NCBI GenBank assembly: GCA_037833965.1
Contig: AP031358.1
Coordinates: 3,728,001-3,792,000, forward strand
Direction of reading: 5' to 3'
Source: Marchantia polymorpha subsp. ruderalis
Taxonomy: Eukaryota > Streptophyta > Marchantiopsida > Marchantiales > Marchantiaceae
DNA length: 64,000 bases
Part shown: one piece after another, positions 33,083 to 64,000 of the stretch
Layout: each line of letters opens with the position of its first letter
Numbering within the stretch: position 1 is the first letter of the stretch
Notes under the pieces: generated by a model
Database searches by the model: none
What the model was told of the DNA's origin: nothing
Seen by the model: the letters and a program-made list of their open reading frames with translations, nothing else
Program-made: the position numbers and the translations under genes

Positions 33083-34500
33083 ATTTTTGTTTCAATTTTA
33101 TATTTCATACAAAATCTTATGTGTCTCTAAATCTCCATTTAAGAATTTTCCAATATTAAATTAATAAATTAAATACATGCATTTAGATTTACTCCTCAAT
33201 CTTCCACCAGTTAAGCTACTCAACTAGCTTGATGATCTTTATTACTTTTTTTCACCTAATTAAACAAATAGCACAAAACATAATCACAATTTTACCTCTA
33301 TGAAAATATTAAAAAAGAAAATTTTATTTTGAAATTATCAACTTGCTTCATCAAATATTGTGTTGTACATATTACACAAGTATTCTTTAGTTTGAATTCT
33401 AATTTTTATGATTATAACTCTATTTATTCAAATAAGAATAATTGATTATTTTTCATCAGTTTATGAATCAATGACGTTAAGATTGATAGCCTTTTACACT
33501 ATCAAAACATATTATATGCACGTTCTTAATAAAAATGATGTAATTTTTGTTTTGAAGTAATTTTTTCACGAAAATGTTCAAATTTATTTATCCAAAGATA
33601 TGTAAGATACTTCTTAATCTTATTATTTATGTGCAAAAAGAAAGCTTAGTAGCGCCTTCGTTTGTATGTATGTATATATATATATATATATACATACATA
33701 CATACATACATATTATTGCTGATACTAATATTCAACATTTGAACATCTGTTTATTTATCTGAAAATCAAAATTGCAACATAACTTGATATAGGATGTGTT
33801 ATAATCTAACATATGCACCATGTATGCACTTAACATTGTTTGCATGATTGCAATTTTTTCTTGGGAAGAGTATAGAATAACATAAAAATACACGATCAGA
33901 TATAGTATGTATTCTTTTTCCCACTTTAAACTCAACATCATCATAGTTAGCACACATAAACAATAACACATCACAAAGTATAAAACAGTGTTGCACGCAA
34001 TTAGACTGAATGGAGGTGCATTAATCACATGAAAAATAAAAGTATGGTATACAACTAAAGCATATTAATCCAAGGAATCTAGTGAATCCATTTTATGTAA
34101 AAATAAATCATAAAGTATTTTTGCTTCATAAGAAATAGTCTTATGAAGCAAAAATACTGTATGTTTTATTTTGTGTAATCCAAGTATGCAATAATTTATT
34201 ATTTCTCAATTTCCTACATCTTGTTATAAATTCTGCAAGATTATAATATCTTTATTTTCATGTGAAAATTTTGCAATATTGTTCGAGAATTGGGGGGAGA
34301 TACTTTACATATTCTATGACACAACAAATTTTAAATCGAAGAATATTCTATGATACTAATGATTTCGAACACAACAATCAATGAACCAGGACCGGCTTTC
34401 GGAATCCATATTCTTATATCTCGAATCAATATTTCAATTCAAAAAATAGGTGATTACAATAGCAATATTTCCAGATGAACTATAATCCAAGATCAGGACC
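33083..34500. other. AT-rich intergenic with microsatellite and hairpin
   Basis: A GTAT/TA/CATA repeat run at about 33664-33712 can fold on itself. A 20-bp perfect inverted repeat lies at 34114-34158, with arms AGTATTTTTGCTTCATAAGA and its complement and a 5-nt loop. No gene is supported. The frames at 33574-34028 largely translate the repeat and its AT-rich flank. Confidence 0.6.
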
Positions 34501-40500: not shown

Positions 40501-41552
40501 ATCGCGGGTGGTCCAGTCCTTGAAGGATGCTTTCTGGGCATGGAAACTGGGCTTGGGGAAAGGGTTCCATTGAGGACCGCCGGAGGCATTTGTAAGCCTG
40601 AGTGACGTGCATTCAAAGACCATGAATGTTCTGAAGTCTCATATACCGCTCTTTTATAAGTTGTGTACGTAGTTCCGGTACGCGTTGTCTGCAGGATAAA
40701 GGTCTACAAACGGAGGCGGGTATGTCTTTACCAAGTACTTTCCTTGTCAACGCAATGGCACTCGACGGTTAATCTGACTACCTAGCCCGGATGCAGCCAC
40801 TTGTCAACAAGGAGGTCGCCTTTATTGCATGACAGTGTCTTCACTGTAAATCTTTCAGCCCCCGGAATCAAACTGGCTAGTTTCAGGCAGGCTGTTCGAG
40901 TTGCTGCACGCCAGTTCTCCGACTGTTGATATCTCATTGGGAATATTTAATGTTTACACATCCAGAGTTTGGAATTTGGAAGAAGAATGTGGACTCTGGA
41001 AAGATAATCACGTCTCTTGACGGTGATATCGACAAGACCAAGTAATTGTAAACATACCCACTCAACCTGCGTAAAGCTGACATCAAAGACCAGTGCACAA
41101 CACAAGATCGATAGCAACAAGGTGCAGATGCACGGATTTAGACTGTAGCTCGTATGAATACCTTCGAACGTACTACCTCTTTGGTTTGTGTGTGAAGTGC
41201 GAACTGAAAACGATGTTAGGGGATTTGTGATGTGTACATGACCCTGACCAAAGACAGTTGCTTGGTCCAGCGCACAATTCTCTAGCTTATGAGGTAAGAC
41301 CGGAGTTACACACATCAAAACGGAATCTCCCAGACGCACAGACAACTGTACACATGCACTTCTCTCGGTAATAGCATCTTAGGAAATACTTCTTTGATCC
41401 AAGGTATCATCCACATCTCTGATTGCCAGTCAAATTGCAAAACGTGTCAGGATGTTCATCTTTCCTTGCACAATCTTTCATTAATTTATGTCTTTTCTGC
41501 TAAAGTCTTACTCAAGATTGAAAGATTTAATAATCACCGTCAACAAAGTTCC

Positions 41553-41593
41553 TTCTAATTATGCTGTACGCTATGCGTACAGCATAACTAGAA
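41553..41593. repeat. 41-bp hairpin, 19-bp stem
   Basis: TTCTAATTATGCTGTACGC is followed by TAT and then by its complement, with one mismatch near the base. The tight 3-nt centre marks a near-perfect palindrome. Confidence 0.8.
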
Positions 41594-41821
41594 ATCAGGA
41601 GGTCCTTGCAGGTCGGTGTGGTAGACAGGGAACCGTGCACGAGGGTATATCAGCGTCGTCAGCACTCTTTGCCAGGTTACCAACGTGCAAAGTAATGTAG
41701 GCGTGTATTTATCCATGCCAGGAATTTCATTATTTCTAATAGACGAGTACACTGTGCCTAATTCATCCTGAGATTCAAAAATGAATCAACAGCACAGTTT
41801 TAATTCTGCGTACAAGTATAG

Positions 41822-41848
41822 GCGCTTCACATATACACAGTGAAGCGC
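41822..41848. repeat. Short hairpin GCGCTTCAC/GTGAAGCGC
   Basis: A perfect 9-bp stem (41822-41830 with 41840-41848) and a 9-nt loop. Function is unknown. Confidence 0.7.
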
Positions 41849-43832
41849 ACGAGTTTCAGCCTCGAAGAATCTGATGACAAAACCGGTTGTTATCGAACGT
41901 CAAAACTGGAGCTACGTTAACAATATCTGATGGAGTTATGATTCAATACGCCTCGTGAAGGAATTTCGCTCTACTGGAAAACTTGCAATGGTTCAGATCA
42001 TGAACGGCAGGAAAGGAGACCATTACTTCCTAGCTTGATCATACAACTACTACCAACTTTTACAGATCCCTGCGTCGGAATTGCCTAATCAAGCTGGGTC
42101 CAGTTGACAGTCCAAACGATGGACTTGGCCTGATAAATTTAACGTGTTTCAGATCTGATCATAGACTAGGACAAGGATCTAGCCCGATATTCTCTTTCGG
42201 CATAACTCCTTATAGACGTAACGTGGTTCTACATCAATTTGTATTTACTGTTTTACCCGGGAATGCAAACGTGGAGATGTAAACGACGGAGATCATCGAC
42301 AAGAACTTGTTCAGACGTCCAGTTTCTCCTGACCGTTTAGGAAATCAAGTTTGATAATTCAGAATATATTGATATTTCTTCCAGCAACCTAAATCTGTAA
42401 GCTTATATCGGTCGAGAAGAGTTTCATCACACCGCCATTCGAGGTGTGTAGTAGAGTAGAACTGCCCGGAAATATGAAAAACACTGCTGACTGGATATCA
42501 AGCAGGATTTTTGCTGTTTTATTATCTTCGGTAGAATATAGGCGAGTTTAAAGCTGTGTCCTATGCCGGACTAAACTTTGTAGCAACACGAAGACACCTG
42601 CTCCCATCTCATGAGTTTTGCTTCTCGTTTTATCTCTTCGTTACGACTGTTGTTTGCATTTCATCCATGTGGAAGTTTCTCAGTGAGGAATACACCGGAC
42701 TGAAGTGTACTTTAAGAGAAGTTCGGATTGTGTACTGTATCTACAGTGGCCGAGACACAATGTGACCTGGTCTTAATCAATTGCATGAACCAAGAACAAT
42801 ACAAAGAACAAATTAACAGCCTGTTTACATTTGAGGTCTTCTGCTGCACTGTGAAGATCATACATGCATCTTCTAAGTAAGTTGAAGAAAAGTTCAATAA
42901 GTTCTCATGTCAATTTACTCGCAGTTTCAATGGACAGTTTTGTCTGATGTTTTACTGCAAGAGAATTCCTTCTTTTGCTTCAAGCCTTTCCTGATGTTCC
43001 ATGTGCTTATGTTGCCTCAGCATTACTTACGTAAGCTCCTATATGGATGACTGCCAATTACCCAGGTAGACATTATGGCCTTCGTTCTGCAGGAAAGACC
43101 ACCTTCGACCTTTGGGCTGAACTAGCAACGGCTTCTAGGAAATCGAAGCAAAGCGAACACCAGAATCTGAACGAAATACTCTTTTGGTAGATTGTTGAAC
43201 TGACTTGCTTGAGTTGTTGAAGTTGCATACGATAGATCCGTTTATACTGACCCTGTGGTATATGCACCTTTGGGTTCAAAAAAACTAAATACAAGTATCG
43301 AATTCGAGACTTTTTCAATTTTATATACAACTGACGTCAATGAGTTGAAGACCAAGGAGCTTAAAAAAATTCCGAGTCTTTCTTAGTGTGAAGTCTATCT
43401 CGCATAACAATATATGAAAAAAAATGGAATCTAAATCAAAATAATCTGCGTTATATAGTGCGAGCGGTGGGCAGAAAAGGAGATGGAGATGGAATCTTTC
43501 CAGTTTGACACTCATCTATATGTGTCACAACTATGAAAATGAGATGAAGATGAAGTGATGTTTTCACTTGAACTTGTAAAAGAACCTGTTCTTAGGATTT
43601 GAGAAGAAACTAACGAACAATCTCAAGGACGGATCATATGTTATACTTTGTGATCTTGTGCAATTGTTACAGCTGATGAGTATGTCGGGCTTGTGTTTAG
43701 CCTCATCTTATTGGAATTTTTTGATGGAGCCATATCCGTTTTCAATGTCTTTCTCTTCAAGCAGTTGATTAGGATATATTTTTTTGCTACTTGGTCGCTT
43801 TGTGAAAGGATAGCATAGATAAACGAAAGAGT

Positions 43833-44208
43833 AAACAGGTTCACTTCGACCAACTTGAGCAATGCAATAATTAAAATGTATACGAGTTGGATGAAGCTGT
43901 TATACGAGTCTCAATTGTTGATATCTATCATACAGGGTGTTTTCCAATATAAGCCATCAGAAATATCCGTATTTACAGGCCAGGATTTTTAGATATCATT
44001 TAAAAAAAAAAATTTACCTGCCATTGATTATACACCTGTAAGATTACGGTAGATTCAAGATGACTCTTCACAAATCAAAACCCAGGTTTGCAGATAGCGT
44101 TATTTTTCTTCGATTGACGCAGGAATGAGTAAAACTTTATGTTTTCTTATGGTTTAGGTAAGTCTTTTCTTAAGGTCGGCGCGCACATATTTTTTTAATT
44201 TCTAGGTC
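43833..44208. repeat. About 375-bp extra block within A2
   Basis: A2 departs from A1 after GATAAACGAAA and rejoins at GTCGCCTG..GC-ACATTTTG. The block has no recognisable gene. Whether it is an insertion in A2 or a deletion from A1 cannot be told from two copies. Confidence 0.6.
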
Positions 44209-44580
44209 GCCTGAGCTGCATTTTGCAAACCGAGTACCGAGTAGATTCATCTTATATGCTCAGACCACTTCCTTTTTCCCCAATCAGACTCTTCTCTCTT
44301 ACTCAAGATACATCTTTACGTTGTGTACACTGTGGTGTACACAACGTTGTACACCACAGCGTAGTGTAGTAAAGTGTAGCAACATTGTACACTTTCTTTG
44401 CCTGGACAAAGGAAAGTCGTAAGAGGGAGGTACACTGGATCATATGAAGTGGTTCTTCCGAATCCACGAAATTAAATATAGACAGTCAAGAAAGTCAACA
44501 AATTCTCTCCGTATAGCGATCTAAGGGTCATCAAGACCAAATAATAGACATTGTCGACCAAATGCTTCTGACCACTAGCC

Positions 44581-46780
44581 TGTTTGCTGGTGGAGACCAT
44601 TTTGTTTTTCAGCACTACATTTGAGATGGAAACACTTACTAATATTATAACACCAGTTGGGTTGTTGCTTTTTATGTGAATGAACATTTTCCACATCCTC
44701 GGGTACAGATACACACACAGATACAGATTCTTTTGAAACCACTGATCCTTGACCTTACAACACGTGTTACCCGATCTAGCAATGCATTCTGGAATTTTTT
44801 GTTATGTGTTGCTAGTCTACCGCAGGATCGAGTCATGAGAACTTGATGGCTTGATTTGATCAATTTACAAAAGTGAAAGACTAATGCATATGATGTGCAC
44901 AAAAATGAATAAATAGAGAAAACTGAGTACATCTCTATGGTATACCATTTGATAATAAATGTCAAAAGAAATCTTGTACCATTTAATTGAGTTGGGCAAA
45001 TGTCACTCAAAGGCTATCTGTGTGTCTGTCAATCTCTTCATAGGACTTTACGGTTTTCTCTTTTCCTCTGCACCACGAGATTTTTTCCAAAGACACATTA
45101 TTTCAATATGTACAAGACAGTGTATTCAGATGAAATACGTGAGCAGAAAAGTTAGAGAGAGTATTCACGAGTAGTGATGCATTTCTCAAAGAAGTAATGG
45201 TGCAATTATAGATTTAGTTGATTAGAAGTCAGCGTTGGAGCACTTCGGAATTTATTGTTCAGATACAGGAGAGGAGTTTTGATTTGAAGTGTGGACTTTA
45301 ATGTGAAAAATGTAGTTTTTCTACGATCTGCATAACTCTATCCTTACACATGAGAAATTCGAATTATTATTCTCAAGAGGGACGTCGATGTTTGCACTAT
45401 AACATATTGAAATCATCGGTGTAAATCAAAATGGAAATGGTTTTATTTATCTGGAAAAGCGTGAAGAATGTATCGGTCTTATCGTCCTAGGCAGGAAAGC
45501 TCAAGGATTTGACCATGTGGAGGAGACTGATGTTCAATCTCCATAGGGCGTTGCTTTAATTGTTCTTGTCACACCGAACTAAAAACTGGAAGCTTCTCTT
45601 CTGACCTCTTACTGCTCAAAACATGTACATCACTGTTGCGTTTAGTTCCACTTTCGAGCAGGAAATCACGGGACTGGCCAAGTCAGATCAGGCTCACCTC
45701 TCACAGTACTTATTTCGAAAGCTACTAAACATCTTCGGTGACAATTTCCAATGAACCTCTACTATACACATAATGGGTAGGTTTTGTTCTTTAACATCCC
45801 AATCAGAATAGTGATCACAAGGTGGAAGGAAGCGAAGTAAGTGGGCTGGGGAACATAATCACAATTTCGACTTCTGAACCGACTCTTTTGTGTTTCAAAG
45901 ATTAACAATAGAATAACTTCCACTTATGGTTTTAAGAAACATATTATACAGTATTGTACTGACTGTACTGTATGCTAAGCATCGTGATTAACGTCTTGCT
46001 TACTAAACTGGGTTTGAATACTTGCGTTTGAAATCTTGGGAATTGATCCACATCACGAACACTCCCTCATTTTTAGGAGTTGGAAACAATTCCCGTCCAA
46101 AGTGTAGCAGCTACTTTGCGCTTAGTGGTGTGTTTTGGTGCAATAGTGGAAAATGTTGTACAAGAGTGTCAGACTCTTCAACAGTCTCAGTATCGCACGA
46201 ATCAAACTCAAGTGGCTCTCAAGTGCTTCCGAAGTCACCTTGAACCGACTGAAATCTGGGCTCACGACTGTACAAATTTCTCTCTTTGGAGGACAACATT
46301 TTGTATTTTGGAACCGGACGCGCATTGACCGTACTTTACGAGTCGGTTAGATGGGGTTGTCTGAGCGTTCACTGTCGAAACACCAGGGTCAGATACCGTG
46401 GTCTCTATCCCGGCATTCTATTTCATTTACCTTCGATAGTGGATGCTCTGAACGCGCTGAGTGGGTGACAAAAGACAACTTGCGAGTCCAAGGAACAACT
46501 CATAGAATATATTGTAACGACCTGGCGGAGTTAAGGAGACGAGAATGCAACAAACACAAGGTAAGTCTCTGGATATTCTCAATGTACACAACCCCTGACA
46601 CTTCAACAAAAGGAATGCTATGTTGGGATAGGAATGTGTGAAACCACGAATACGTTGGCCAACTACAGACAAATGTTCAATGGCGTGACATTGGTAACAA
46701 CTTAAAACCCACATATTTATTTTCACTCTTTCAAAACCTCCCATGCATTTACGCATGTTGCATCGTTTCTTAGGTGTATT
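44581..46780. repeat. About 2.2-kb extra block within A2
   Basis: A2 leaves A1 after GACCACTAGCC and rejoins near TTGAACATGCTAATATTATA (A1 about 7206). A1 has only about 50 unmatched bases at this place. The block has short frames on both strands, none recognisable, and no clear terminal repeats. It is a candidate non-autonomous insertion. Confidence 0.6.
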
Positions 46781-47440
46781 TAAAATTGAACATGCTAATA
46801 TTATACGCAGTAAACAATCTATCTCATATTGGAAATGGTGGTGTAGAACTCCACCGAAAAACCTCCCAAAAAAATCTTATTAAATATCCTATTAGTCGTA
46901 TCAAGTACAAACGTACATTGTTGCTTTACACACCTAAGAATGCTTTCTTCTCCAGAAAATGTCATCCACTGTGGGTTCTTTTTGTCAAAAGTGGATTTGT
47001 CATTGACCATTGTCATTTGTCATTACCGTAGTCAGAAATTCATGTAATATCCTGCCATTTCTCCCTTGGCTCCTGTGGATGTTAATATTCAATATTCACC
47101 GTGTTGAAGTTTCTCTAGATTTTCTACACAATCAAGTTTACGTTTGCTTGTCCCAACTGAACAGCCCCAAGTTGTGCTTTGGAATTCACAAGCTGTTCAG
47201 TAAGACTCAAGCTGTCAAAAGACCAGTTAGCTTCCAACATTCTTCACCCGAATATCAAACCTGACATGCACATCAAAAGTATTCACACAGATGAGGTTAA
47301 AAAGGCCGGTGTGTGTTTATACATAAAAAGCTATGTAATTTAAAAATTTAAAGAAAATATTAAAACAAATTTAGAATGGTGCATCTGCACATGTACATTA
47401 TTTAGGATTATAACATGGAAAAAATTCAGTGTCTTTGATC

Positions 47441-48999
47441 AGTTCTTCTTCATGATCGAATCGATAATATATCCTCTACATAGATTTTCACTTACGTGAG
47501 AAAGAGGTAATTGGAGCCTTTGTTCTAATAATGAAGAAGAAGGTGTTCAAATGCTAATATTGCATTCGGACATCGAAGGTTCATAATATCAGTCTCATAT
47601 GCACAATGACAAAGTTGAAAGTAAGTCGACCGTAAGGTAAGTAAAGAACATAAAACATCTTAACTCTGAGGTATATAGTCTACTATCTGCACTATTGGCA
47701 AATCTACGGAACGACAGAAATTGATGCAAGAAGAATCCATGGGAGGTGGAGAAAGGAGAAACATGTAGAAGTATATTTTCCATTTATGATCTTACACCAG
47801 AGAAAAAGCCATCAAAACATTGAAGGATAGTACAAAAGCACGAGTAAACCGTTGTGATCTACCGTAATAAGACTCAAAACAAAGGTAGGTACGGAACTTT
47901 GGCAGTCGAAATTTGAGGCATAAGTTTTTATTTATTTATCAATAGTGAGAAAAACACATGGAGCCATGCTTCCAACACATGTACAAGAATTCGAAAGACA
48001 TAAAATCTTGATCAATATGTGATTGAAATGAATGTAAGGTAATGAACTTTTATTGGATGGTTTAGAATTGCTTACAAGTGGAAGACGTAAAGATGGATTT
48101 GTGAAGAAATGCATGAACGGATGGTTGTTAGCTCTTGGCAAACGTGCTTTGAAAACAGGATGGGCAGGTCGTGGGTTTTCAATGTCCCCTCGTTCACAGC
48201 AGTGTTCCAAATGGTCCAATTTAATACTTCCAAGGCATCATGCAAACTACTCGTTCCAGGGCTCGAAGTGTGAGCTGCATCGTGACACCGATCCATAGCG
48301 CCTGAGATCTACATTTTGGGGTCATTGCTTTGCTCTCAGAAATAAAACTTGAAGCGTTGGTAAAGAGCTCGACCTCAACGGCATTATGAACGATCTCGTG
48401 CCATGTAGAGGAATCGTGACGATGAGTCGTGCATCTCACACATGAGATCTCGCTCCAGTGTCCCAAGGGAGGACGGACTGAGAACAGTACAAAGTACAGT
48501 AGTATACAGAATCGAAGGAGTGTCGTGAGAAGGTGACACCCGTCAGAAGTACAAGGGAGTAAAAAGCTCGAAGCAAAAGCTGCTGGAAAAATGGAACAGC
48601 AAGTTCGTAGGCGGCAAGTACAGTGGTTTGGATTGTGCAGAAAGTTAAAAGGATTTGGGCTGATGCGATTTTCTCATTCAGGCTATTTCCTCCTGCAAAT
48701 TTCAACCTACTCATGCATGCTACCATTCAACTGCCAATTTTAGATTCTACAGTGCTCGGGGCGCACTTGATTCCCTAGGGGGGACTAGTAGCCTCAATCA
48801 TCTCATCTGAATATGGAAGCAGTACAGTACTTTGTCGCGGGAATGTTATCTGGGATTTTGGTTGGTACATTTTCGAACATGTTCTGTGTTGGTGAAGTAG
48901 AGCAGAGTAAATAGTGGTATGAATGTAGATAAGCCCTCGGACAGTTCGCTTGCGCCATCTGGGTGGTGGATATTCTCGCTGATGCGGGAACGGGAAACA
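47441..48999. other. Intergenic, no gene recognised
   Basis: Frames reach 96 codons (48436-48726, minus) and overlap on both strands. I recognise none and see no repeat boundary. Confidence 0.5.
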
Positions 49000-50720
49000 G
49001 CATTCAAGCAGCACTTAGCCAACTGACAACGTAACTCAGAGAGCAGTTCATTAGGACATTCTTGCGGGAAAACTTCATATCCGTTCATCGAGATGTGGAG
49101 TGACTGACGAGGAGGACTTCTCTTGAGGCTTGACCCGTCGTCGTCGTCGTCGGCTGTCACATCGAGGAGAGCGCTGGGTGGCTTTTCTTTTCCCGGCGGA
49201 TGTGAGGACTGATGGATGGATGGATGGATGGACGAGAGAGAGATCAAATCCGATCCTAATCCCGAGAAAGCGACCGATCGACAGATGGTTTCGGCCTTCC
49301 AGCCAAAGGATTTTGCAAAGCTGTATGTGTACAGTGGAAGCGTGCGTAGCTTCGGGAATATCTGAGGTAGAAGTGTACAAGGCAGCGCAAAGTTGCCAGC
49401 AGCCGGCTCCTTAATTACCAGCGATCCGTAGCCGATCGAGCATTAATAAAGGCACACTTAGCAATGATTGTCATTTACATCCGGTGGCTACCGCCGGACA
49501 TGTCAGTGCGAGCAAGGGCGGACGGTCAGTGAGTGAGTGAGTAAGTAGCAAAAGGCACGTCGATGCACACACACTTTCCTGCGCCATCCTCGTCGCTCTC
49601 GATCTCTCTCTCTCTCTCTCTCCTCGCCGTCCTTCCCTCCTTCCTTCCCTTCCCTTCCCCTCCCCTGCCCGCTCGCTCGCCCGCCCGCCCGCGCGCACCT
49701 CGTCTCGAGACGACAGACGACACGAGAGAGCAAACTGTACTTTTCCTGATATTTCTACTTTCGTATTCGGCGCACGCACGTGATGTCAGCCTTCGAAGCC
49801 ATGGAGGTCGAGGACGGACGCTCGTAGTTCTCCATGGACAGTACTATTCCACACGCGACCACTCACTCACTCACTCGCTCACTCGCTCAACTCGACATAG
49901 ACGCATCCAGATGGTCTGCGCACTCTGATCTGGCTGCTGTCGGTCAAACGTAGATGCTTCCCTCGCTCGCCACTCTCTCTCTTCTGCCTCGCGCCTCGGC
50001 CTCACCTTCGCCTCCACCAGACTGGCATGAGCGTGGCAACCCCCCTATCCGCCCCTCAAAGGCGCCTGGGAATCAATGGCATGTAACCGGCCAGCCCGAC
50101 GAGCGCCTGCATGCTCCCCTATTCTGTTCCACTGTAGGTTGGGCTTTCGATGGCTCCAGCCAAACGGTCCCATGGGGCCCTTCCTTTGTCTGTTGCTCGT
50201 TTGTCCGTTTTCCATCTTGGCTCTAGAGCGTTTCTCGCATGCCCAGACACCCCCCTAGTGGACGTTGCGCTCGCGACAGCTCCCCACGCACCTTTTCCAC
50301 TGTTCGTTCGTTTCGTTCGTTCGTCCCCCGCCTCCCTCTCCATTGCTGCGCGCTCGCCTTCGCCCCTTCGTCTACGATGTCGGAGTCGGTAGCGAGTACG
50401 TAGAGACGAGACTGTATGTGTATGTCCTGCGGCTCGTGCCCACAGGCGCTTGGACTGTGCGGCGAATTCGACTTTGCTCTCGCTGCGGGCTCAGAGAAAG
50501 TGTTGTGCCCGACCGGGAGGTGGTAGGCCGGAGTGGAGCCAACCGGCCTACTCAAGTTTGCAGCGGACTCGGTCCGGGGGCCTAGGCCTTCGATCGCCAT
50601 GCTTCTGTACGATGGTGGACTCTTTGTAGGCCAGGAGACATTTTCCACGTACAGCGACGTATGGAATCACGACTTTCATTTGTACTGCAGCAGAGAACAA
50701 TTTGTAGTCTCATGCTGAAA
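49000..50720 (+). promoter_or_regulatory. GC- and CT-rich zone, probable promoter and leader
   Basis: This is the most GC-rich stretch of the window. It has a CGT run (about 49136-49152), GATG repeats (about 49213-49231), a CT run (about 49601-49621), CCCT/CCTT tracts, and CACT/CGCT repeats (about 49858-49886). CT-rich tracts on the plus strand resemble plant transcription starts and 5' leaders. Translated frames here are low complexity, so I call no protein. The zone lies 1-2 kb upstream, in the plus direction, of the hairpin cluster at 51.5-52.2 kb and could drive it. Confidence 0.4.
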
Positions 50721-51478
50721 ACGATAAGTTAGTACCCAATTTTGTACCAATTCCGGGTTTGATCAGCGAGTATGATGCTAGCTTTTCACTCCTCACTATC
50801 TTCTTAGCAGTTTGATAATATTACCTCCTGCATTTTTCCATTTTGTTCCTTACTACTCCATGTTCCTTTTCGTGTTTATTTTCTCAGTGTACATTGATGG
50901 GTATGCTTATGTACCTGTTAATATTCTTCTACTTCTGTATTTTCTTCAGACTTGTTGCTTTTAATGAAACAAATTCAGTAATAGTTTAGATTTTACTCCA
51001 TTTGTTTTCCCTCCACCACGGTCAAACTCTTCTTTTGTGTGGGATAAAATCTAATTCGGCACATTTCCTTCATTGATAGAAAGGAGGTGTTTATAGTTGA
51101 TCTACAATATACGTTTGCTTCGCTAGATACCTTACCATCTTGCAGTAATCACCGAAAGTTTCCTTTCCCTGCGTGCAATTTAGTGACTTTGCAGTGCAGT
51201 TTTTTCTTCGGTTAAATAAAGTTGAGAATAAATTATATCATCAGCTTTAGCTTTCATTCCATTTAGCTTACCTTCTCCACTAATTACAATCCGACAGTGT
51301 CGAGATGAGCCATTATATACAAAATAAATGGAACAAAGAAAGAACTAAACGTGATTGCGTTAATTTATACCATTCTATTAAGATAAATCATTTACCCTTC
51401 CTGTCACACGGTCGACGTCTGTTATAAGCGTCGAAAGCGGTAGCAGGAGGTTTAAACTGTGGACTGAAGTGAATACCA
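50721..51478. other. Moderate-AT stretch, no gene recognised
   Basis: No long frames or repeats. If the hairpin cluster is transcribed on the plus strand, this would be part of the primary transcript or an intron. Confidence 0.5.
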
Positions 51479-51513
51479 ATCGTGGAAATGACATCTCAGA
51501 CCATTTCCACGAT
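51479..51513. repeat. Perfect 12-bp hairpin beside the miRNA-like cluster
   Basis: ATCGTGGAAATG (51479-51490) pairs with CATTTCCACGAT (51502-51513) across an 11-nt loop. It is too short for a plant miRNA precursor, but it lies 49 nt before the first long hairpin. Confidence 0.75.
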
Positions 51514-51561
51514 AGACTATGGAGATGCCGTGCAGAAACTGTCAGCTCCATCCTTCGTTGG

Positions 51562-51671
51562 CTAGACAACGTGTCTTGACAACAGTAAGCCCTCAGCTGG
51601 TAAGACCTTCACTATGAAGTAATGAGCTGAAAGCAGCTAGGGGTTTACCATTGACAAGGCACGCTGCCTAG
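51562..51671. ncRNA. Candidate miRNA precursor hairpin 1
   Basis: Arms 51562-51599 and 51634-51671 pair over 38 nt without gaps: 29 Watson-Crick pairs, with the rest wobble or mismatch. Read as plus RNA there are 3 G-U pairs and 6 mismatches. Read as minus RNA there are 5 G-U pairs and 4 mismatches. The loop is 34 nt. The right arm holds the 22-nt block (51634-51655, core GCTAGGGGTTTACCATTG) that is identical in all three hairpins. Size, continuous imperfect pairing and one-arm conservation fit a plant MIR fold-back. I do not recognise the mature sequence. Confidence 0.7.
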
Positions 51672-51738
51672 AATAATAGACAGATGTGACATGGACCATA
51701 ACTCAGTACCTCCACCCCGGCGTTGGCTGTGTATAAGA

Positions 51739-51834
51739 GGCCTGCCTCGTCAATGGCGAACTCTCAGCTGACAGGCATGGAAATAGCCGTATCCACGACA
51801 GGCAGCTAGGGGTTTACCATTGACGGAGTAGACC
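51739..51834. ncRNA. Candidate miRNA precursor hairpin 2
   Basis: Arms 51739-51770 and 51803-51834 pair over 32 nt: 23 Watson-Crick pairs, plus 5 G-U and 4 mismatches as plus RNA, or 4 G-U and 5 mismatches as minus RNA. The loop is 32 nt. The conserved 22-nt block is at 51803-51824. Its opposite arm differs from those of hairpins 1 and 3, as expected for a passenger strand. It lies 67 nt after hairpin 1. Confidence 0.7.
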
Positions 51835-52084
51835 CCATATTATAGTGTGATGAACGACCCTTTCAGTCTCGCAATTGCAGCTGATACTCGGCGAATGGCT
51901 GCATCGGCAAATAACAAGAGGCATCCAGATAGCTTGGCCGTCACAGTGTATGAACTCACTCACACTACCAACTTGTGACAACTCGATGGCCAGATCAGGA
52001 TAGTGATCTCTCAACCCAGTTACGGATGTGATTCAAACAGCGCGTTCTCCACAGCAGGCCTAAAACATCCCTATGAAGTAGGCT

Positions 52085-52167
52085 CTGTCAATGACAAACC
52101 CTCAGCTGGACTCCGGCTAAGAACCGAGGAATCACATTCAACCCAGCTAGGGGTTTACCATTGACAG
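52085..52167. ncRNA. Candidate miRNA precursor hairpin 3
   Basis: Arms 52085-52108 and 52144-52167 pair over 24 nt with 20 Watson-Crick pairs: 1 G-U and 3 mismatches as plus RNA, or 3 G-U and 1 mismatch as minus RNA. The loop is 35 nt. The 22-nt block is at 52144-52165. This hairpin has the best duplex and favours the minus strand, where the guide would start with U on the 5' arm. Confidence 0.7.
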
Positions 52168-53243
52168 TGCATGCATCACAGATAGTCGATCGATTCAACA
52201 CTACCCAACATCGCGTCCGGCTTCATCCAAACTGCAGAAGAGGAAACATAATTCCCAGACAAGCAGCACACTCTGTGCATGAAAGAAGCTGTGGCACTTA
52301 GGCGACCAAACACCCTCGGTACACAGTCTCGACGTAGAATCGGAGATACGGTTATGCGAGCAAGTCTGAAATGGTCGTGCGAGCGAGTCTGATGTCCGAA
52401 ACCAAACCAGATCTCGGCATCATCTGCACAGTGAAGCGGTTGCAACACAGTCACCATCCCAAACAATCCTCTCGACATATTTGAGAACTAGCCAAACAAG
52501 CACTCAGCCCGAGTGCAAATCATCTGAGAGCGGGCCCAAATTTCGCACACACACGTTCCGTCCCGTCCTCTAGCTAGCAGCTCGAGAGAAGACTCGGAGC
52601 TGCATATAAAATTAAACACGCGCGATCTTCACATAGAGGGGAAGGAGAAGACAAAGTGCTCGCTCTCAGCTCTCGGGAGGTGATGATAGTGGACGGCGCT
52701 AGAGATCTACAACAGCGCGAGAGTGCCCAATGACGATCCGACGAGACATGCTCAGCAACTACTCCGCGCTCGCTTGAGCCTGCCTGTCCGCCGAATGCAA
52801 TACAAGTAGGTTCAGTCGAGCTAAATATGAAGGCCAGTAGACCTCAGTCGAGGTATTGAAGGCAACAGCCAAGACAAACATGCATGGGCTGATCCGCCGC
52901 CTCCGCCGCCTCATTTTAATCAGCATCTACTAAGCTGGATTTCTTTCCAAACAAGTCATGCCTTCAAATACTGCTTACGGAGGTCAGGTCATTACCCGCA
53001 AACTAACTCTGGGAGTTAATACGGGCACGGACCGGGTGAGGATCGGCGTCGCTGACCGGGTGGGCTTTAACCCACCCGGGATTAGAGGAGAGGTAGGTAA
53101 CTGTGAGCCCGGGTTCGAGGTTAATCACAGGATGACCACATTAAGTGGATCAAGAGCTCGTCGGTGATGCGCATGACGCAGGTTGCAGCCGACCAGTCAG
53201 TATAGAACTGTATCAACACATCTGGCATCTCTTTCGACCAGCT
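52168..53243. other. Flank of hairpin cluster, no gene recognised
   Basis: Moderate-GC sequence. A plus-strand TATA-like CATATAAAATTAAA lies at about 52603-52616. CCGGGTGGG/CCCACCCGG at 53056-53079 forms a short GC-rich hairpin with a 6-nt loop. The 100-codon frame at 52176-52478 (minus) is unrecognised. Confidence 0.45.
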
Positions 53244-53411
53244 CTAGCAGGTTGGTCGTTCGTCGCAATGGTTTCCAGTGGGTCGCAATTTGGACCAGAT
53301 TTCAGAGCTAGTGTGGACCCACAGCTTCGACTGGAAATGAGCCAACTCCCACAGCGCAGGTGGGAACCATTCTTCTTCACTCGCCGTCTCCAGCAGCTCC
53401 TTGTACACCAT
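53244..53411 (-). CDS. Possible 55-residue short protein
   Basis: The minus-strand frame begins MVYKELLETASEEEWF and ends in DERPTC. It is acidic at the N terminus and Trp-rich (five Trp), with no low-complexity run, signal peptide or known family. Its ATG is about 42 nt downstream of a TATAAAG box (53452-53458), so it would be the first ORF of a transcript heading into the hairpin cluster. It could be a small gene, a first exon, a miRNA-transcript peptide, or chance. Confidence 0.25.
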   Translation of the reverse strand: MVYKELLETASEEEWFPPALWELAHFQSKLWVHTSSEIWSKLRPTGNHCDERPTC

Positions 53412-53451
53412 GACAAATCTATTTAATTTCTTTTCGAAATTCGCCGGCGCT

Positions 53452-53458
53452 CTTTATA
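53452..53458 (-). promoter_or_regulatory. Candidate TATA box
   Basis: TATAAAG on the minus strand, within GATTATAAAGAGCG. A start site would be expected around 53420-53428, just ahead of the 55-codon ORF and about 1.3 kb upstream of hairpin 3 in the minus direction. Confidence 0.3.
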
Positions 53459-53599
53459 ATCTTCCCGTACTTAAGGTAGGATCAGTAGGCGTGGACAGCT
53501 CCCGGTAGGGTAGAGGAAGTACCTTAACGCGGATGGACCGGCGAATGGCACCTCCACTCCAGCCCACCGTCTCCCTGCACACTTTTCATGTTACCTGCA

Positions 53600-55990
53600 A
53601 GGCCTCCCCATCTCACAATGGTTATTATGATCATGGTGAGAATTTGCTCAGGCTTTGAAACTGGTCTCTAAACACTGGTAAGAATCGAGGATTGATTTTT
53701 TGGGTATTTAACGCAACAACACTCGAGTTATACATTGTGAATCTATGTGTAGATTTAAAAATTTTCGATATTCATGTGAAATCATTTTAAGAAATGAATT
53801 CAAATAAAATCGGTATGGGTATGTGTATTTAATAATGTGTATATAATTAACATGTTATGTGTGGTATCATTAGTTATAATGAATATATCGTATTGTGTTT
53901 GACGTTTGATAATCAAGAGTTTTTTTTTCCCAGATCTGAAAACATAAATCTAGATCTGATGAAATTCATTATATGTATTAGGTTTATCAGATTATAAAAA
54001 TTAATGACTACTTCTTATTTCAATATCATATGTTCAGATCATACAATCTACCATGACATGACAAGTGATAATATAATTTTTGTAGTTCATATTATATTTC
54101 TGAAAAGCATAACATAGTTATATAAAAGCTAACATTTGTGAATCGAGTTTATCATGTTTCTTTCTTTATATGATGTTGATTTTATACTTCATATATTGTA
54201 ATTTCATCATATATTTTGTGAATTTTATTATTCAAAAGCGCATAAAAATCACTGCCATATATAAAACAACATTTAACTTTATCATGGCATTGGAGTTTTA
54301 AGTCTATTAAGAGACTTACAACTAGCCATGACCTTCAAGTATGTAAACAAACTTGTGATACCTATACTTTGAATTTCAGGCATTTTAATATACTGGTTTT
54401 AATAATATATTATATGATTTCTTGATGAACTATCTTTCAACAAAAATAGCTCTTAGCATCAACCATATTGCAAGTTGGATCTTATTCGTTTAATTAAATA
54501 AATATGTATTGAATATTTATAAATAATATAATTCTTAATTACAATTTCACTGTAATGTATGTTTAATTGAATGGTTAATCATGTTATTCTCACAATATGG
54601 ATGCAAATCATTTTAATCTTAAATAAGTGTTGTTGGTCAAATCTTACTCTATAATTTCAAGCATACAAACAAAAAAGAATTCGTGTATCAATAGACATAG
54701 TTTATACCAGACTCAAATTGAATATTAAAATGGGGTACATGTGTTTGTAAATATTGATAATTTTAATAGGTATTGAGGCAGGGAGTCAATTTGAAAGATA
54801 TTATATGGTAACTTGCAAATCACATGAAAGTTCCGAATACATTTGACTAGTTTTCATGTTGTATCACAATAATCAGAAAATCAATAAGTTAAATATAAAT
54901 TATTATATATATTTATATATATATATATAAATAAATAATGCGCCGTTTCGTAAATCATGTAAGTAAGTGATATTACATAATTTTTTTTTTTACAAAAGTT
55001 CAACCCATATTGAAGAATACAATTTTTTAAGCTAGACAATTGTCTTTGTATCACATTGAAGTTTTGTGTGTGTGTGTGTGTATATCCAGCGTGAAAAAAT
55101 AATGGAACAGATGTTGAGCCTACTATAAGTGTATTGTCACATAACATTCTCTTCTCATGAGCATTGTTGAGAGTGGTTAGTCATTGATTTGAATATAAGT
55201 CTTGATGAAATATCTAGACATATTCATCTATCATATATTGATATTTTAATCTTGAGAAAATTCTCGATTCATCTCGAATTTGAAATATTTTCTCATTTTA
55301 TCAATTATTATATATACATATATTAAATTTATAAAAATTTTATGATTTAAAATTTGGCAGTTCAACATTGTGCATTATATCATTATCAAGTGTTAAACCT
55401 AAATTAAATCATTTTTAATCTACTCCAGGTTTTAAAATAATCTAATTTCATACATATTTATCAATTTAAATAATTGATCAGAATATTACATAAAAATATA
55501 TGTGAGAGGACATTGAATTTATTATCTAGTTCTTTTAGTATAATACGAGATTTGGTCCAATGAGTGAAAAAAATCCATCACGTGGAAATAGTATAAAGAG
55601 AGACTATTAATAAGTTTGTTAGTTACAGGAAATCGAGAAATACAGAAAAATTCAGTTATAAAACAGATCAACTTAGAACTTTAGCATCCAGGAATTATAT
55701 GATATTCAAGATTGATCAATTTATTGATTGAATCTGGATCAAATGATTGATTTTAAACATGTAGTACCTAAAATTTAAAGTTATTTGCAATTGTGTAATA
55801 ATGAAAAAATGGATTAAAATTAGGTGAAAACATTATTTTGAATCTTTTCAATTAAAAATTATTTTCTAAAAAAATATTAATTTAAGAATAACATGCAGTG
55901 CATAAATTAATATTCATCAATTTGACTTATTTCAATAAAAATATACAATGAAAATATTGCTGAGATATTACATGTTTATCCCACCGAATC
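53600..55990. other. AT-rich intergenic, no gene
   Basis: Strongly AT-rich, with TA runs near 54901-54930 and a GT run at about 55067-55082. The 88-codon frame at 54881-55147 (minus) largely translates these repeats. Confidence 0.65.
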
Positions 55991-57999
55991 TAAACGATAT
56001 TCACGACACTGGGATCACAGCTACTGGACAGTTTAGATCCCTGATATTACATGGTTTACTATCACACATTAAGCCATGGGACGAGTGAAGAAAGGGTGGA
56101 GCTAGGGTTACTTAATATATTAATATGGCATTTCGTGTACTCGAGAAGAAACTGTAAAGAAATTACAAAGTGTACACACCATTAATGGGTGTTATTACCA
56201 CACTTATAACCTATTACTTGATCCCTTGTACATAAAGGGACATGACCGGAAGACACGAATCACGTAACGAACATGGCTATTTTTAGTATATGTTCACTCG
56301 AGAGTACAGGTTATTTACGTGTTGCCTTCCTGCGGCTAGCCAGGGTCGTCCGAAGAGGGGCCTCTTGTATAAAACAAACTCAGATAAACCTTTTCACAAT
56401 GCATATTCTGAGATTTGTTTTAATCTATATATGGGGATCGTAAGTCGAAAGAATTTGCAATTATGGGAAAGAACGGCTCAGGGTATTCTTAAATGACGAT
56501 TAGCCAAATGAAGTAGATCGTGTATGTTAATTATGAGAGTCAGAACGCTACTCTCCACCTACTGCCACAGACAGGAAAATTTGACGGTGATTGTGAGTTC
56601 CTAGTGGACAGGAGGCAGACAGAAGGTACAAAAAAGGTATAATTACTTCTATATTAAGTGTCTAAGCCTATATCTGATTCCCAGATTCTTTCTGTGCATT
56701 CTCGAATATCATCATGCTAGTTTGAAATCAGATGCATTGATTGGGGAACTCCAAATCTGACTGGTTTATTATTCACGAAAAGTACGAGATTTGTTTCCCT
56801 TAATATCATGGCAAACAGACCCATTCTCTAGAATGCCCATCTTCAATGTTGCAAAAGACGATGAGTAGGTGACTGTGTACTGTCGGTCAAGCATTAGCAT
56901 TTGTGCCGTACATAAGACAAGCATCAATCTTGTTAATTACACCTGAAGTCATTTTTAATTTAATCAGCAGTTAATGCGTGACTGATGATATCGACCTGAA
57001 ATGATTATGAATGTGCGTGAGAGGTATCCTCGTATTTGGCGTATCTTACTTGTTCACCTGTAGTGGACTTGCACGAACATGAAGTTACATCGAAGGAGAT
57101 ACTGGACGTCAAAAGCTGTCTTCTGAGGTAAACATTCGTGCTGTTACCGCCACTAATAAGGGGACGGCGAGGAGAAATTACATTGGCTATGGGAAAATAT
57201 ACAGAATATTCAGGTTAAGCTATCTCAACTTTGTGTGCGAATGGTTAACGCTTGGAAGCCAAAAATGAAGTTCCTAAAAAATGGTCTTCTAAGAAATCTA
57301 TGGAATTCTTGAGTCACAAAAAACCAAGTATAGTATTTTAAAATTTTACAGGTCATGATTCCGTCTTCACTCACTTTATTGGGCACAAAATATCTACCTA
57401 TGAGTTTTTGAATTAATTGTCATGAGTCTTCACTTTGCGATGCTTGGACCTTATGAAATCTTCGGGTAATTTCTACGAGTAGTAGGTTGGTCAAATGTTT
57501 GGAAGGTAATGTTTCCTGTTAATTTACTTTTACAGTAAAACTCTCTGTAACAATAAACCGTCACTTACTTATCGTTAAACCCACGCCATGGTTTGCAGGT
57601 TTGAGATACATTACTCAGATGTTCACATATCTTTTCTTTAGAGCAGTGAAGGAGAGTGTCTAATCGCTCCCAGTTTAGAGCAAAGGTGGATAAGCAAGTA
57701 ATAGAGACGGACTTCACTTTACAACCTCACAATTCAAAGAATTCATTTGGATACGTGGTATCATGATGGTGGTGATATGTTCCAACATGAGTACAAAGCA
57801 TGCATGACATGTAAGACCATACACATGAGTTGACGTAAATATTTTGAAAACAATAGTACTTCTATGACGGAGTGTTAGGTCATGATGTCATGAAATAGGG
57901 GGATAAGTTTAATCGATGCGAAGGTAAGGGATCAACATGTGCATGTTTTGCCGATAAATTACAAACTTTCAACAAATAAAGGTGGAAGGAATGTAGTAT
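55991..57999. other. Moderate-GC intergenic, nothing recognised
   Basis: Frames are at most 68 codons (56290-56496). No domain, exon chain or repeat boundary is visible. Confidence 0.5.
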
Positions 58000-59500
58000 A
58001 CACTATAAATTAAAACATAAAAATAAGAAAAATGTAGAGATGAATTATTATATGGTAAATGGTAAATATATCAAACCCGTGGGACCCAAAGGGTCAAAAG
58101 GCTAAAAAAAACATAATACAAACAATACAACTCCAAACTAGGAGAGAACCAAAAGAATCTCCTAGCTAGTGTCCAAAGCACTAGAACGGTAACTAATAAT
58201 ATTTCTAATGTAACAACCTAAATCATAAGGCTCGAGTTGAAACAGAGAAAAAAAATTCTCGACATCAACTTTATGCGCCACTCGAATAAAGCAAAACAAA
58301 TCTAATAATGATCTATATACTTGCTTAGAATTAGGTTGAATTTATGTTAACTAACATGTTATTTGGACTGAAAAGTGAAGATAAGTATATATTATGGATA
58401 AATTATTTAGGTCTTATATATATATATATGTATAAGACCGAAATAATTTATCCAGGGCCAACTATTTACTACCACATTAACATGAGTAATGATCTTATAG
58501 ACGTCTAATATTCAGTTTTGTGTCTGAACACATTTATTTAAAAAATCTATAGCATATCATGTTTAATGATCATTATCATGATATTAATTCATTGAATTGA
58601 GAATATTTATCAGATTACTAAGTATATTGTGAGTATGAAGTTGATTCAAAATCCATAATTGGTAATTTATATGATTAACATTGAAAAATCTGTCGGTATA
58701 TATTTGACATTAAAATTCAACAGGAATAACATTCATTTTCAGAATCTTTCAATTTGTGGATTTTTGAATGTGAATGTTTGGAATGAAGTACAGTCAATGT
58801 GTTGATGAGTTTTTTTATCATTAATATTTTCTCAAAATCATAAAAAGAGTTGATAGTTATAAACGTTGACAACGAAATTTCGATTTCCTTCTCATAAACT
58901 TCAATTTAAAAATGTATTTCAAGAGCAGATTATATTGTAATATTTTAAGAAAACACTGTATAAAATTTCGACTTCAAACATGAAATTAGAATATAAAATA
59001 TTGATCACATAAAGAAAAACAGTCATATTTCAATTTTGGATGAATATATACCGTAATTAATATTGGGATTTTGACAATTTGAAATCATATTATGAAATGT
59101 GAATGAACTAAATCATGAAAATTGTTGAAGACTTATAGAAGTATTTTGATCTGATTTAATTCAAGCGTACATTGAAAATACTACAAGATATTTGAAATTT
59201 ATCATTATATAGATTTGAAAATATAAACCATGACATTTTGGAATGAAAATTTGAATTAATTTGACTGGAAGGTGGTTTGGGTCACCATATGATTATCAAA
59301 AGTAATTTATAAAATAACCGATGTATTCTTCATAATATAGTATACATCAATGTAGATCTAATCACAATCCATGCTTCTCTCATATGTGTAACTAGACAAA
59401 GTAACAATAACACAAACATATATTATGTAAAATACATCTCAGAGCACTCATGAGCGAAACTTCTTAGTAGCACGGAAGGAATTTCTTGATGACACATGAC
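58000..59500. other. AT-rich intergenic with one palindrome
   Basis: AT-rich DNA containing the palindrome at 58395-58454. Nothing else is supported. Confidence 0.6.
58395..58454. repeat. 60-bp near-perfect palindrome
   Basis: TGGATAAATTATTTAGGTC is mirrored with one mismatch across a TATA-rich centre. It is a hairpin-forming element like those at 29024 and 34114. Confidence 0.8.
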
Positions 59501-61076
59501 TTTTATGAGAATATTATGACTTGTGTCGTCTTCGGGGCATTGTTAGTATAACCGCAAAACCTTAGGCAGAATATGTTCGCCGTTTAGCTATACTACATCC
59601 AAAGAAATTTTCCGAAATCCATCTTACTCTTCTCTCTTACTTCGGATTGAGTCCATAAGAATGCAACTATTTCAAATCAAATTTACTAACACTCTATACT
59701 TCATGAATTTTTACATGACTTAAACGTAGCCTTGCACAAAATGCTGTTAATATTTGTATTTGTACGGGAAGAAAGATTGAGGAATCTTCACATGTCAACC
59801 AGTAAATATTCAAAGCGTATATTCTATCTTTGTAACAGTCTGTCAACATTTCAAGAGTAGTGTTTTCTCCTCTACATTCTGAAGCCTAACAATATGGAGA
59901 TTTTTTACTTTAAAACCCATAAACTCGTTCTATCCAACCAACAATAAAATTATTCTGACGAGGAAGTGACTTTCAAACGGATTATTGAATTATACTTTCA
60001 GAGCAAAATCTTTAAGCCCTTAGTAACTCTAGGATTTTCCGTTGATTTCTTATTGAAGATATTAATCTGCCCAAAGTAGATACCATATTCAATGTATTCA
60101 TTCAGGACTCATCGTGAACACCATTTTGAATACGTTTCCAACAAGGAGTCTAGAAGATTCTTTAGCACTCCTGGAGCCTTAAATACTAAAAAATTCAGTG
60201 TCGTAAGGTTTTCTGCGTTCAATTCTGCGCTGCAAGATCTTTTAAGTTCAAGACAAAGCAGACAAATATATTAATTGACTCAACAGGTCATATTGACTTC
60301 AGTAACGCAGATTTCCGCGACACGGATGTGACAGCCATACCTCGTCATATAATTGTTACCATCTGACTGATTTTCCTCAAATTAGCTCTGATAATTTGAT
60401 GAAGTCCAGAAAGCAGTGTCTGTTGGATACATTTAAAAGACCAAATATGAAGATAGAAGTTTGACGTACAGTCAAACTGCAAAGTCAACGTTAAACTAAA
60501 CCCTTAAACTAAAGCGGACTGTTGAAAAACACCTGCTGCAAAGTTGCTTCAAACCTTCAGCAGCTAAATTACAGGACTGATCAACTAATGTTCCACAAGT
60601 AGGGAGTATTTACTTGTTGAGTTTCTTTAAGGCTATGCATTACAGATATCTCCTTGGGATGGTGAAGCTTCGTCGTCTCCGCTTCACCTCTGATCAAGAT
60701 TTACACTACGTTCCAATGACCTTGTACTTACATTTGGGGTTGTATGCATCAGACGTTGCTGCAGGCTAAGGAAATATATACACACATACTGAACCAGAGC
60801 CAGCAGCAATCATCCTTGAAGTATATTGAATTAACACAGGCCCCACTGATCTAGTTATCTTCATCATTTCCTAGAATCAATGCGCGTTAGTGTCATGACA
60901 GGATCATCTTGCGTTGATGGTTGTCAAAATACTTAACTTTTGGAGGATCTGCCTCACTTCCTGATATGGGTAGGACAGTATGAAGGAAAGATGGTTTCAT
61001 AGAGACTTTGTGCTGCATCTGTCGAAACCGTAACTGCCTGTTCAATGCCACCCTTGTGCTCAATGGGATAGATAGT
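59501..61076. other. Intergenic and ETFDH 3' UTR side
   Basis: No gene is recognised from 59.5 to about 60.8 kb. The last 200-300 bases before 61076 probably hold the ETFDH 3' UTR. Confidence 0.45.
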
Positions 61077-63730
61077 TTACATAACTGAGTAACCTGGACC
61101 ACCACCACCTTCAGGTACAGTCCACTGAATGTTTTGTAGAGGGTCTTTGATGTCGCAAGCCTGCAATCAAATCCCAAGGACACCCGTCCGAAAATAAGTT
61201 ACCAACATATGCTGAAACATGTATAGTGCGTCTTGATCAGCAATTTGTGTGCCAACTTCACAAATATGCTTCAAACCCTCTGGTAATTTTCTCCAGGAGA
61301 CTACAGATCCACTGTCGAATCATATACTATTCGAATCTAAGTGATTCTCCGCGATAGTACATGAAACAATATGCAAAGGATTCATGCGTCCAAGGGAGAA
61401 ATTCAGGATACAAGGAACTAAAAACCCTTGGAACCAACTGGAGTATCTTTAACGATGATAAAAGCGACAAGAATCAACTCACCTTGCAGTGGAGGCAATT
61501 TTGAGCATTTATGTGAAGTTCTAGCCTATCGTTTTTATCAGGTAAGTACCTGAAATCAAGCAAACAAGCATGCATCAAACCACACCCACCCTAATGGTTT
61601 CGTAAAGACGTACAGGCCTCTTGGATGAGCGATAATTTCAATTCTAGCTGGAATCTTCATCCACGGTATTCATGCTTCACGAACAACCATTTCCATGCTT
61701 GCATTTACGTGGCATATCTCAGCGTACGCACAACCATGTACATGTTGAAATATATTTCCAGTGTCCTTACGAAAACTAACGGTAAGTATATGATTAAAAA
61801 TACGTACTCATAAACACGAGCAGGACAGTAGCGACCCTCAGGTCCTGCGAATTTTGCTAAATTGACATTCTCTGGTACATTTACATCACGTAGGCGCAGG
61901 TGAGCCGGTTGATCATGGTTGTGATTAGTGTTACTCCTGTATCAGTTATCAAGTAGTAAGACGCGTTTCCCATACCTTGCTCATTGCGTTTGATGAGGCT
62001 AAGATATAGAATAGTATGGTTAACTTCGGTCCGAAAATGCCTGTCCTCAAAGGTCATACACAACTGGTGAAACGAACTTTGACGAGTGTTGGAGAAGGAT
62101 AGGTGATGCCTGTGATCTTAGAACAATCACCATCATATCTATGGCCATTCATTTGATGAGTCATACAAGGTATATTGTTCCAACCTGTACAGAGAAGTCA
62201 GCACATCGAAAGACACAATCCCGTCTGGTTTTGGATAAGATATTGGTTTATGCACATCTGCAGGCTGCAGACGAGAGCATCCAGTCCCTATTAAACTAAG
62301 GACTCAATGTCAATCTCATCAATCTTAGGACGAACATTGTACAAAGCAGATAAAAGAGTTGAACAGGGAAGATTAAAACACAACCCTACCTCCGTACATT
62401 CGTGATCTGGTTTTCCATGTTTAAGTGTCCAAGGCAACCGTCCTCTCGTTATATAACTGCGCAGACATATAACTTGCATATAAGGTCGAATATTATGACC
62501 CAATGTTGTGAAGGATCTGGACCAGGTGTCGGCTAAAATGCCCAGCATTTTCCATCTCAAAATACAGCAATACTTGAACTGAAAAGTGAGTGAGTATTTT
62601 AGTGGACGTACTGCTCAAGGCCTGCAATTGCCATGCCCGCTAAGAGACCATGATCAAAACCCTGTAGATTTCTCGAATGTGAGATTCTTATCATGCATAG
62701 AACTCAAGCATGTCCTTACGGTAACGTAGTCTGAAGGTGGGTAAGTATAGACATTCCGAATACAGCTAGATGGGCATAATCATTTAAATTTCAGACTTTG
62801 ATAGTCACGAAAAGGTACCGGTCGTATGTTTCTAACTTGGTGCAACTCCTTCCACACCCAAGAAGTTTTCAAGGAAGACCAATACTGTTCCATAGATGGT
62901 TGCTGCGATGTTTCTTTGCTTAGGGCATCAAACGCAGCCTCTGCTGCCAGCATCCCTGCATTGTCCAGCCATCTCCACCTTACAACTAATGTCTCATGTG
63001 TATTGAAGAGCTTGGAAGACCGTTAGCTCTGACTTCCATTTACTTCTTTCCTATTCTTGGTTCTTTTCCACGAGTGTTAAAAGATCAAGTGGATTTTGGG
63101 TATATTCCTACTGTGTGTATTTTGCTATACGTAATTTTTCTCTTTTTTTTTGACAGTTACAGGAAAAGTCTTTTTACTACGGCTCTCACACATTCTTTCG
63201 GTCAAACATTACACGCGATTTGGATGCTTTCAGATCTAAACAGAAGTTTGCCAACAGAAAGTACGATCTTAGGCATGCAGAAATAACGCCACATAGAAAG
63301 AACAGTCTTCTTATTTCAAACGGCATACTCACAGATTCACCGGGTTTACCTGACTTCATTGCTGTATGGGAGCCTTTGATCTTCGGTACGTTGATAAAAC
63401 CTGCTGTACAACCTATAAGTGCTCCACCAGGAAACGCAGTTTTTGGTATAGACTGCAAAAGACCAACTGAAAATTTAGCAAAGTCACGAAGGAATGGATG
63501 AAGAATAAGATTCTCATAATCTTTTCACAACATCAGGAACCAAATAGAGAGAAAGCACGCAATATACACGGGATTGATTGGAAGCCTTGTGAACCTTCAT
63601 TCATCAGTCTGGGAAAGAGCGGACCTCGTGAGTTTACCTGGATGCCACCCTCATTCAGAGTGCGAGCTCCATATTGAATAACATTTCCACCCTCGATGAA
63701 GGGCCTAATAGATGGATGCTGCTTGAACCT
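61077..63730 (-). CDS. ETFDH: ETF:ubiquinone oxidoreductase, C-terminal part (runs off window)
   Basis: This mitochondrial inner-membrane flavoprotein passes electrons from electron-transfer flavoprotein to ubiquinone, serving branched-chain amino acid and acyl-CoA oxidation. Coding exons are 63638-63730, 63350-63452, 62819-62955, 62612-62661, 62390-62456, 62185-62264, 61808-61936, 61483-61549 and 61077-61160, all in consistent phase. They give the last 269 residues of a protein usually about 600-630 long, with the N-terminal half beyond base 64000. Signatures are [58 protein letters not shown], and the 4Fe-4S cysteines in RYCPARVY and NCLHCKACDIKDP. The C terminus is [15 protein letters not shown]. 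No lesion is seen. Confidence 0.95.
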
Positions 63731-64000
63731 CTGTGAAGAAGAAGGCAGTTCTATGTGATAAAGACAATCTTCTAGGCGCTTCTGCAAAGCAGATGCTGAG
63801 CATTCTAGCAAGGTGAGGTAGGAAGTAAATATTTTAGAATTCGAGGTCTGCAGCTAAACAACTTACATGGACTTGCGTTTAAGTAACTTTTACTATTGAA
63901 GTTCAAGAATTGGTTTCTTGAAATGTAATCTGTTAATAATAACTTAAAGAAGGCATTTACCTGGCTACTTAACTATTGAGTCAAACAATACAGCTAATTT

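Follow-up and report, generated by a model that had tools for sequence, protein, structure and literature searches.

The closest described counterparts of the locus reported here are lineage-specific, multi-locus plant MIR families such as those of Physcomitrella, in which, according to the accessible part of the report (PMC1838911), several hairpins carry one small-RNA-sized guide. The accessible part of a further paper sets out criteria for a plant MIRNA in its Table 1 (PMC12594335): guide and star of 20-24 nt forming a duplex with 2-nt 3' overhangs, no more than five mismatches in the miRNA/miRNA* duplex, an asymmetric bulge that must not exceed three nucleotides, at least 10 reads and at least 75% precision. 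A second group of counterparts, NLR-targeting plant miRNAs such as miR482/2118, miR1507 and miR6027, bears on what such a guide might regulate. As far as the accessible text of a 2023 review goes (PMC10575705), miRNA control of NLRs is traced only to gymnosperms, and the sites named in its Table 1 are P-loop, kinase-2, TIR, RNBS-D, ARC, CC and unspecified NB; GLPL is not named there, although NB could include it. Physcomitrella has four PHAS loci in a 2015 survey, none of them in the genic columns as its row reads in the part available (PMC4457045), and the available parts of PMC3565333 and PMC4957126 mention no moss miRNA that targets an NLR.

Here I describe three hairpins sharing one 22-nt block in a stretch of 64 kb, referred to below as the window. 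The best explanation, with a probability of roughly 0.65, is a MIR cluster that arose by tandem duplication in land-plant DNA, here apparently non-coding, and that is most likely transcribed as a unit from the minus strand. The repeat, the hairpins and the divergence profile keep a tandem MIR cluster, which the original prediction had also offered, ahead of its rivals. Like the Physcomitrella families, the three-hairpin cluster is without a match outside its lineage as far as tested; those families are cloned small RNAs, whereas the present cluster is known from DNA sequence alone (comparison with the accessible part of PMC1838911).

Three hairpins and their shared block

The block, CAGCTAGGGGTTTACCATTGAC, is present letter for letter at 51634-51655, 51803-51824 and 52144-52165, the three places at which it had been predicted. 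No further copy with up to three mismatches was found on either strand of the 64-kb window, and 100 shuffles searched at the same tolerance gave a mean of 0.00 matches against the three in the real sequence. Five 20-mers occur at least three times without mismatch in the window: three come from the block, and the other two are TA repeats. Exact scans of viral contigs and prokaryote genomes gave 0 hits, as expected for plant DNA. Every copy of the block folds back onto, and pairs with, a left arm that has diverged. The features, given on the favoured strand, are as follows.

About 51560..51673, minus strand: hairpin 1, candidate MIR precursor (fold and alignment)
About 51731..51842, minus strand: hairpin 2, candidate MIR precursor (fold and alignment)
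About 52069..52183, minus strand: hairpin 3, candidate MIR precursor (fold and alignment)
51634..51654, minus strand: candidate 21-nt guide of hairpin 1, on the 5' arm, within block 51634-51655
51803..51823, minus strand: candidate 21-nt guide of hairpin 2, within block 51803-51824
52144..52164, minus strand: candidate 21-nt guide of hairpin 3, within block 52144-52165
51577..51597, minus strand: predicted star of hairpin 1, computed from pairing, 2-nt 3' overhang
51748..51768, minus strand: predicted star of hairpin 2, computed from pairing
52086..52106, minus strand: predicted star of hairpin 3, computed from pairing

Three separate fold-backs had been claimed, and folding bears this out: hairpins 1, 2 and 3 have z scores of -4.45, -4.76 and -5.44 on plus and of -4.90, -4.74 and -5.87 on minus, and for each hairpin on each strand 0 of 200 shuffles folded as well as the real sequence. 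The predicted span of 51562-52167 was essentially right, but the hairpins extend slightly past it, to about 51560-52183. Energies were computed for 12,780 segments of 110 nt on both strands; once overlapping segments are merged, the minus hairpins rank 4th, 6th and 10th from the lowest energy, a ranking that is not GC-corrected. No gap interrupts the pairing of guide with star in any of the three hairpins, within the bulge limit, and from the predicted pairing a 21-nt guide/star pair with 2-nt 3' overhangs can be drawn for each.

With 100-nt flanks hairpin 2 is lost from the predicted ensemble on both strands, and with 150 nt it is partly lost. I tentatively attribute the loss at 100 nt to part of hairpin 1 entering the predicted fold, because hairpin 2 is restored with 200-nt flanks and in the fold of the whole 891-nt region. 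A covariance model built from the three hairpins gave six matches in the window, which are the same three loci, each on both strands. A possible fourth hairpin at 51900-52040 was rejected, having a z of 1.03 and 173 of 200 shuffles that fold equally well. Just outside hairpin 1, at 51479-51513, lies a short perfect inverted repeat with 12-nt arms and an 11-nt loop, which possibly belongs to the same transcript as hairpin 1.

Divergence, covariation and alternative explanations

In the alignment of the three hairpins the block shows 0 pairwise differences in 66 comparisons, the opposite arm 16/66, the two lower stems 24/42 and 26/42 (together 50/84) and the loop 55/89, so that invariance is, as predicted, restricted to one small-RNA-sized strand. 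Judged from the alignment, this is the profile of duplicated MIR genes. Divergence increasing from block to opposite arm to the remainder is the order to expect where targets constrain the guide, pairing with the guide constrains the star, and folding alone constrains the rest. The hairpins had also been described as diverged yet still pairing. Pairing is indeed retained, in 86.1% of the 108 cells of a 36-pair stem against 27-44% when the stem is slid by 1-3 columns. Compensation is less marked than that description implied: with partners shuffled among the three sequences the mean is still 81.5% paired (86.1% was reached by 7 of 500 shuffles), and both partners have changed in 6 stem pairs, where the shuffles average 3.4 and 31 of 500 get as far as 6. 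The lower stems form 28 Watson-Crick pairs out of 42, where the shuffled mean is 10.5 and 0 of 20,000 shuffles get there. The left arm of the hairpin 1 lower stem makes 11 of 14 pairs with its own partner and 2 and 4 with those of the other copies; hairpin 2 has no such advantage (8 pairs with its own partner, 9 and 7 with the others) and hairpin 3 is barely better with its own (9, against 7 and 8). The stems thus show real covariation of a modest degree, which is what three sequences permit, and it is evident chiefly in hairpin 1.

Could these fold-backs be something other than MIR genes? They might belong to an inverted repeat such as a miniature transposable element, a source of mixed siRNAs or of none at all, and the window does contain other strong fold-backs. 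However, there are only three copies in the window, and their identity is confined to 22 nt of one arm, with loop and lower stems differing at 0.57-0.62. Copies of an element that had moved recently would be alike from end to end; identity over 22 nt alone counts against a transposon, and I regard this origin as very improbable. The fact that the 22-nt block alone is invariant among the copies would suit a conserved protein-binding or other cis element, with the hairpins incidental to it. However, the opposite arm pairs with the block in the fixed register just described, and a binding site needs no stem of the kind whose lower part outpaired all 20,000 shuffles; of the explanations considered, a cis element seems to me the most remote. 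The MIR cluster is accordingly kept, and there remains the matter of its strand, for the same cluster might be transcribed from plus with a 3'-arm guide, CAGCUAGGGGUUUACCAUUGA(C).

The original prediction had placed the guide on the right (3') arm of the plus strand, which is probably wrong, the minus strand being lower in energy for all three hairpins. It is lower for the whole 891-nt region as well (minus -324.2, z -5.31; plus -284.7, z -3.89; 20 shuffles each), but part of this gap is base composition, as shuffled means are -288 on minus and -248 on plus, and z for hairpin 2 is about equal on the two strands; the plus hairpins, too, fold far better than shuffles. Over the three 42-nt arms plus has more mismatches and fewer G-U pairs (30 and 10) than minus (24 and 16). 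Mismatches in the 21-nt duplexes of hairpins 1, 2 and 3 number 3, 3 and 1 on minus, compared with 4, 2 and 3 on plus, within the five-mismatch limit on both strands alike. By these counts neither strand can be preferred, hairpin 2 having fewer mismatches on plus (2) than on minus (3). On minus the block reads as G followed by UCAAUGGUAAACCCCUAGCUG, a 21-mer with a 5' U on the 5' arm, whereas no 21-mer with a 5' U lies wholly within the block on plus. A 5' U is common among plant guides. TATA-like and polyA-like motifs bring no decision between strands, and scores of the covariance model are higher on minus by construction and therefore provide no strand evidence. Overall the minus strand is favoured by about three to one, on evidence that is weak, and a plus-strand transcript with its 3'-arm guide is unlikely.

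Family identity

Within Rfam 15, nothing contradicts the prediction that the sequence is not a widely conserved plant family: a scan of the whole window yielded 0 matches at the gathering score, and the best lenient match in the locus, mir-493, scored 23.8 bits (E 0.13) where the gathering score is 68. According to the accessible part of its description, Rfam 15 has completed synchronisation with miRBase, omitting about 200 alignments, most of them with one unique sequence (PMC11701678). Had miRBase listed a family of three distinct hairpins, Rfam 15 would be expected to contain it. Neither the guide nor its complement, as 17-letter strings, is mentioned in the main texts of the published papers searched; 12-letter strings of the two returned only papers that are unrelated by title and the start of the abstract, all of them for one DNA string. 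In the parts available, PMC5569507, PMC3565333 and PMC4957126 contain nothing naming the UCAAUGGUAAACCCCUAGCUG family. The MIR family is probably new as far as Rfam 15 and these texts go, though of a known kind.

Genomic setting

At E 0.01 the six frames of 46001-59000 contain no Pfam match. The cluster therefore lies in apparently non-coding DNA, although short or fast-evolving exons could escape such a scan. Pfam was searched at E 0.01 in six frames of 46001-64000, the three minus frames of 16001-29000 and five of the six frames of 33001-46000, and at E 0.1 in ten single ORFs of the window. Exons of ETF-QO lie on minus near the end of the window, in 59001-64000 (Fer4_ETF_QO, E 1.3e-19 and 1.3e-8); ETF-QO is electron transfer flavoprotein-ubiquinone oxidoreductase.

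Region 1049-11320 is taken up by a large inverted duplication. Its arms are as much as 96% alike, and each of them holds an exon of plant-type ribosomal protein eS4 (2863-3330 minus and 9021-9488 plus). The encoded eS4 is identical at 100-101 of 142 positions (70-71%) to four plant eS4 chains, a figure that a diverged paralogue would give as well. These chains, which I take to be from the angiosperms tobacco, tomato, Arabidopsis and wheat, are identical among themselves at 123-135 of 142 (87-95%). On these identities the source plant is probably not an angiosperm, and I would guess at a bryophyte. Diverged copies of a repeated segment, about 81-95% alike over pieces, lie 37-40 kb apart at 5613-7773 and 42679-47352, one of them inside the eS4 inverted duplication. 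The strongest fold-back of the window, at 22760-22900, is nearly perfect, with about 33 pairs and a 3-nt loop (z -12.08, -67 kcal/mol) and may be a young inverted repeat, a MITE-like element or another small-RNA precursor. Strong short-loop hairpins also occur at 16870-16999 and 41520-41650 (minus z -7.53 and -6.75).

A candidate target

A site fully complementary to the minus 21-mer would read CAGCUAGGGGUUUACCAUUGA, and its sole stop-free frame encodes A-R-G-L-P-L, which contains GLPL, a motif of NLR immune receptors. With the conserved 22nd base the following codon becomes ACN, threonine, in all three copies; the bases flanking the block are not conserved among the copies. Of 200,000 random 21-mers, 29 per strand encode GLPL in one frame or another, a figure to be read with the fact that the match was noticed post hoc and that many other motifs would have drawn attention. 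The six frames of the window contain one other GLPL, at 26656. The alternative plus-strand guide would point to NGKPLA.

A hand-typed query around the encoded motif matched 12 solved-structure sequences at E<=10, the best of them at E 0.061; nine are plant disease-resistance or NLR proteins and three are designed proteins. Five NLR alignments among these 12 were inspected: in four the motif is GLPL, with S, A, T and A as the next residue, and in the fifth it is ELPL. In the four with GLPL the residue two before the motif is C, C, C and T, never the alanine encoded by the block, and I give the NLR reading less weight because this alanine is unmatched. Under a simple penalty the minus guide has no site scoring <=6 in the window other than the three blocks themselves and the hairpin 3 star arm.

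Judged by the accessible text of PMC10575705, the candidate would resemble miR482/2118, miR1507 and miR6027 in that its predicted site would fall on sequence for a conserved NB-ARC motif. It differs in that theirs is a system traced only to gymnosperms, with GLPL not among the sites named, that most NLR-targeting guides in the review are 22 nt and the candidate guide 21 nt, and that the NLR target is here a prediction. That a non-seed plant has here a new MIR family, the guide of which would target NLR mRNAs at the GLPL-coding sequence of NB-ARC, is a tentative suggestion, and I consider it doubtful.

Proposed function and implications

For the candidate cluster I infer the following course of transcription, processing and silencing. 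It would most likely be transcribed from the minus strand as one transcript, and a Dicer-like enzyme would release a guide/star duplex from each hairpin. The 5'-arm strand UCAAUGGUAAACCCCUAGCUG (21 nt, 5' U) would then be loaded into Argonaute and would silence mRNAs bearing near-perfect complementary sites, a possible class of which is NLR immune-receptor mRNA at its GLPL-coding sequence.

As a MIR cluster, the locus would add one more lineage-specific family, which is ordinary for plants, and a well-defined one with three copies and one guide. Should this guide prove to target NLR mRNAs in a non-seed plant, miRNA control of NLRs would extend beyond seed plants and to a motif that is unnamed among the sites in the accessible part of PMC10575705. 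Small-RNA control of immune receptors would then be older than thought, or would have arisen repeatedly.
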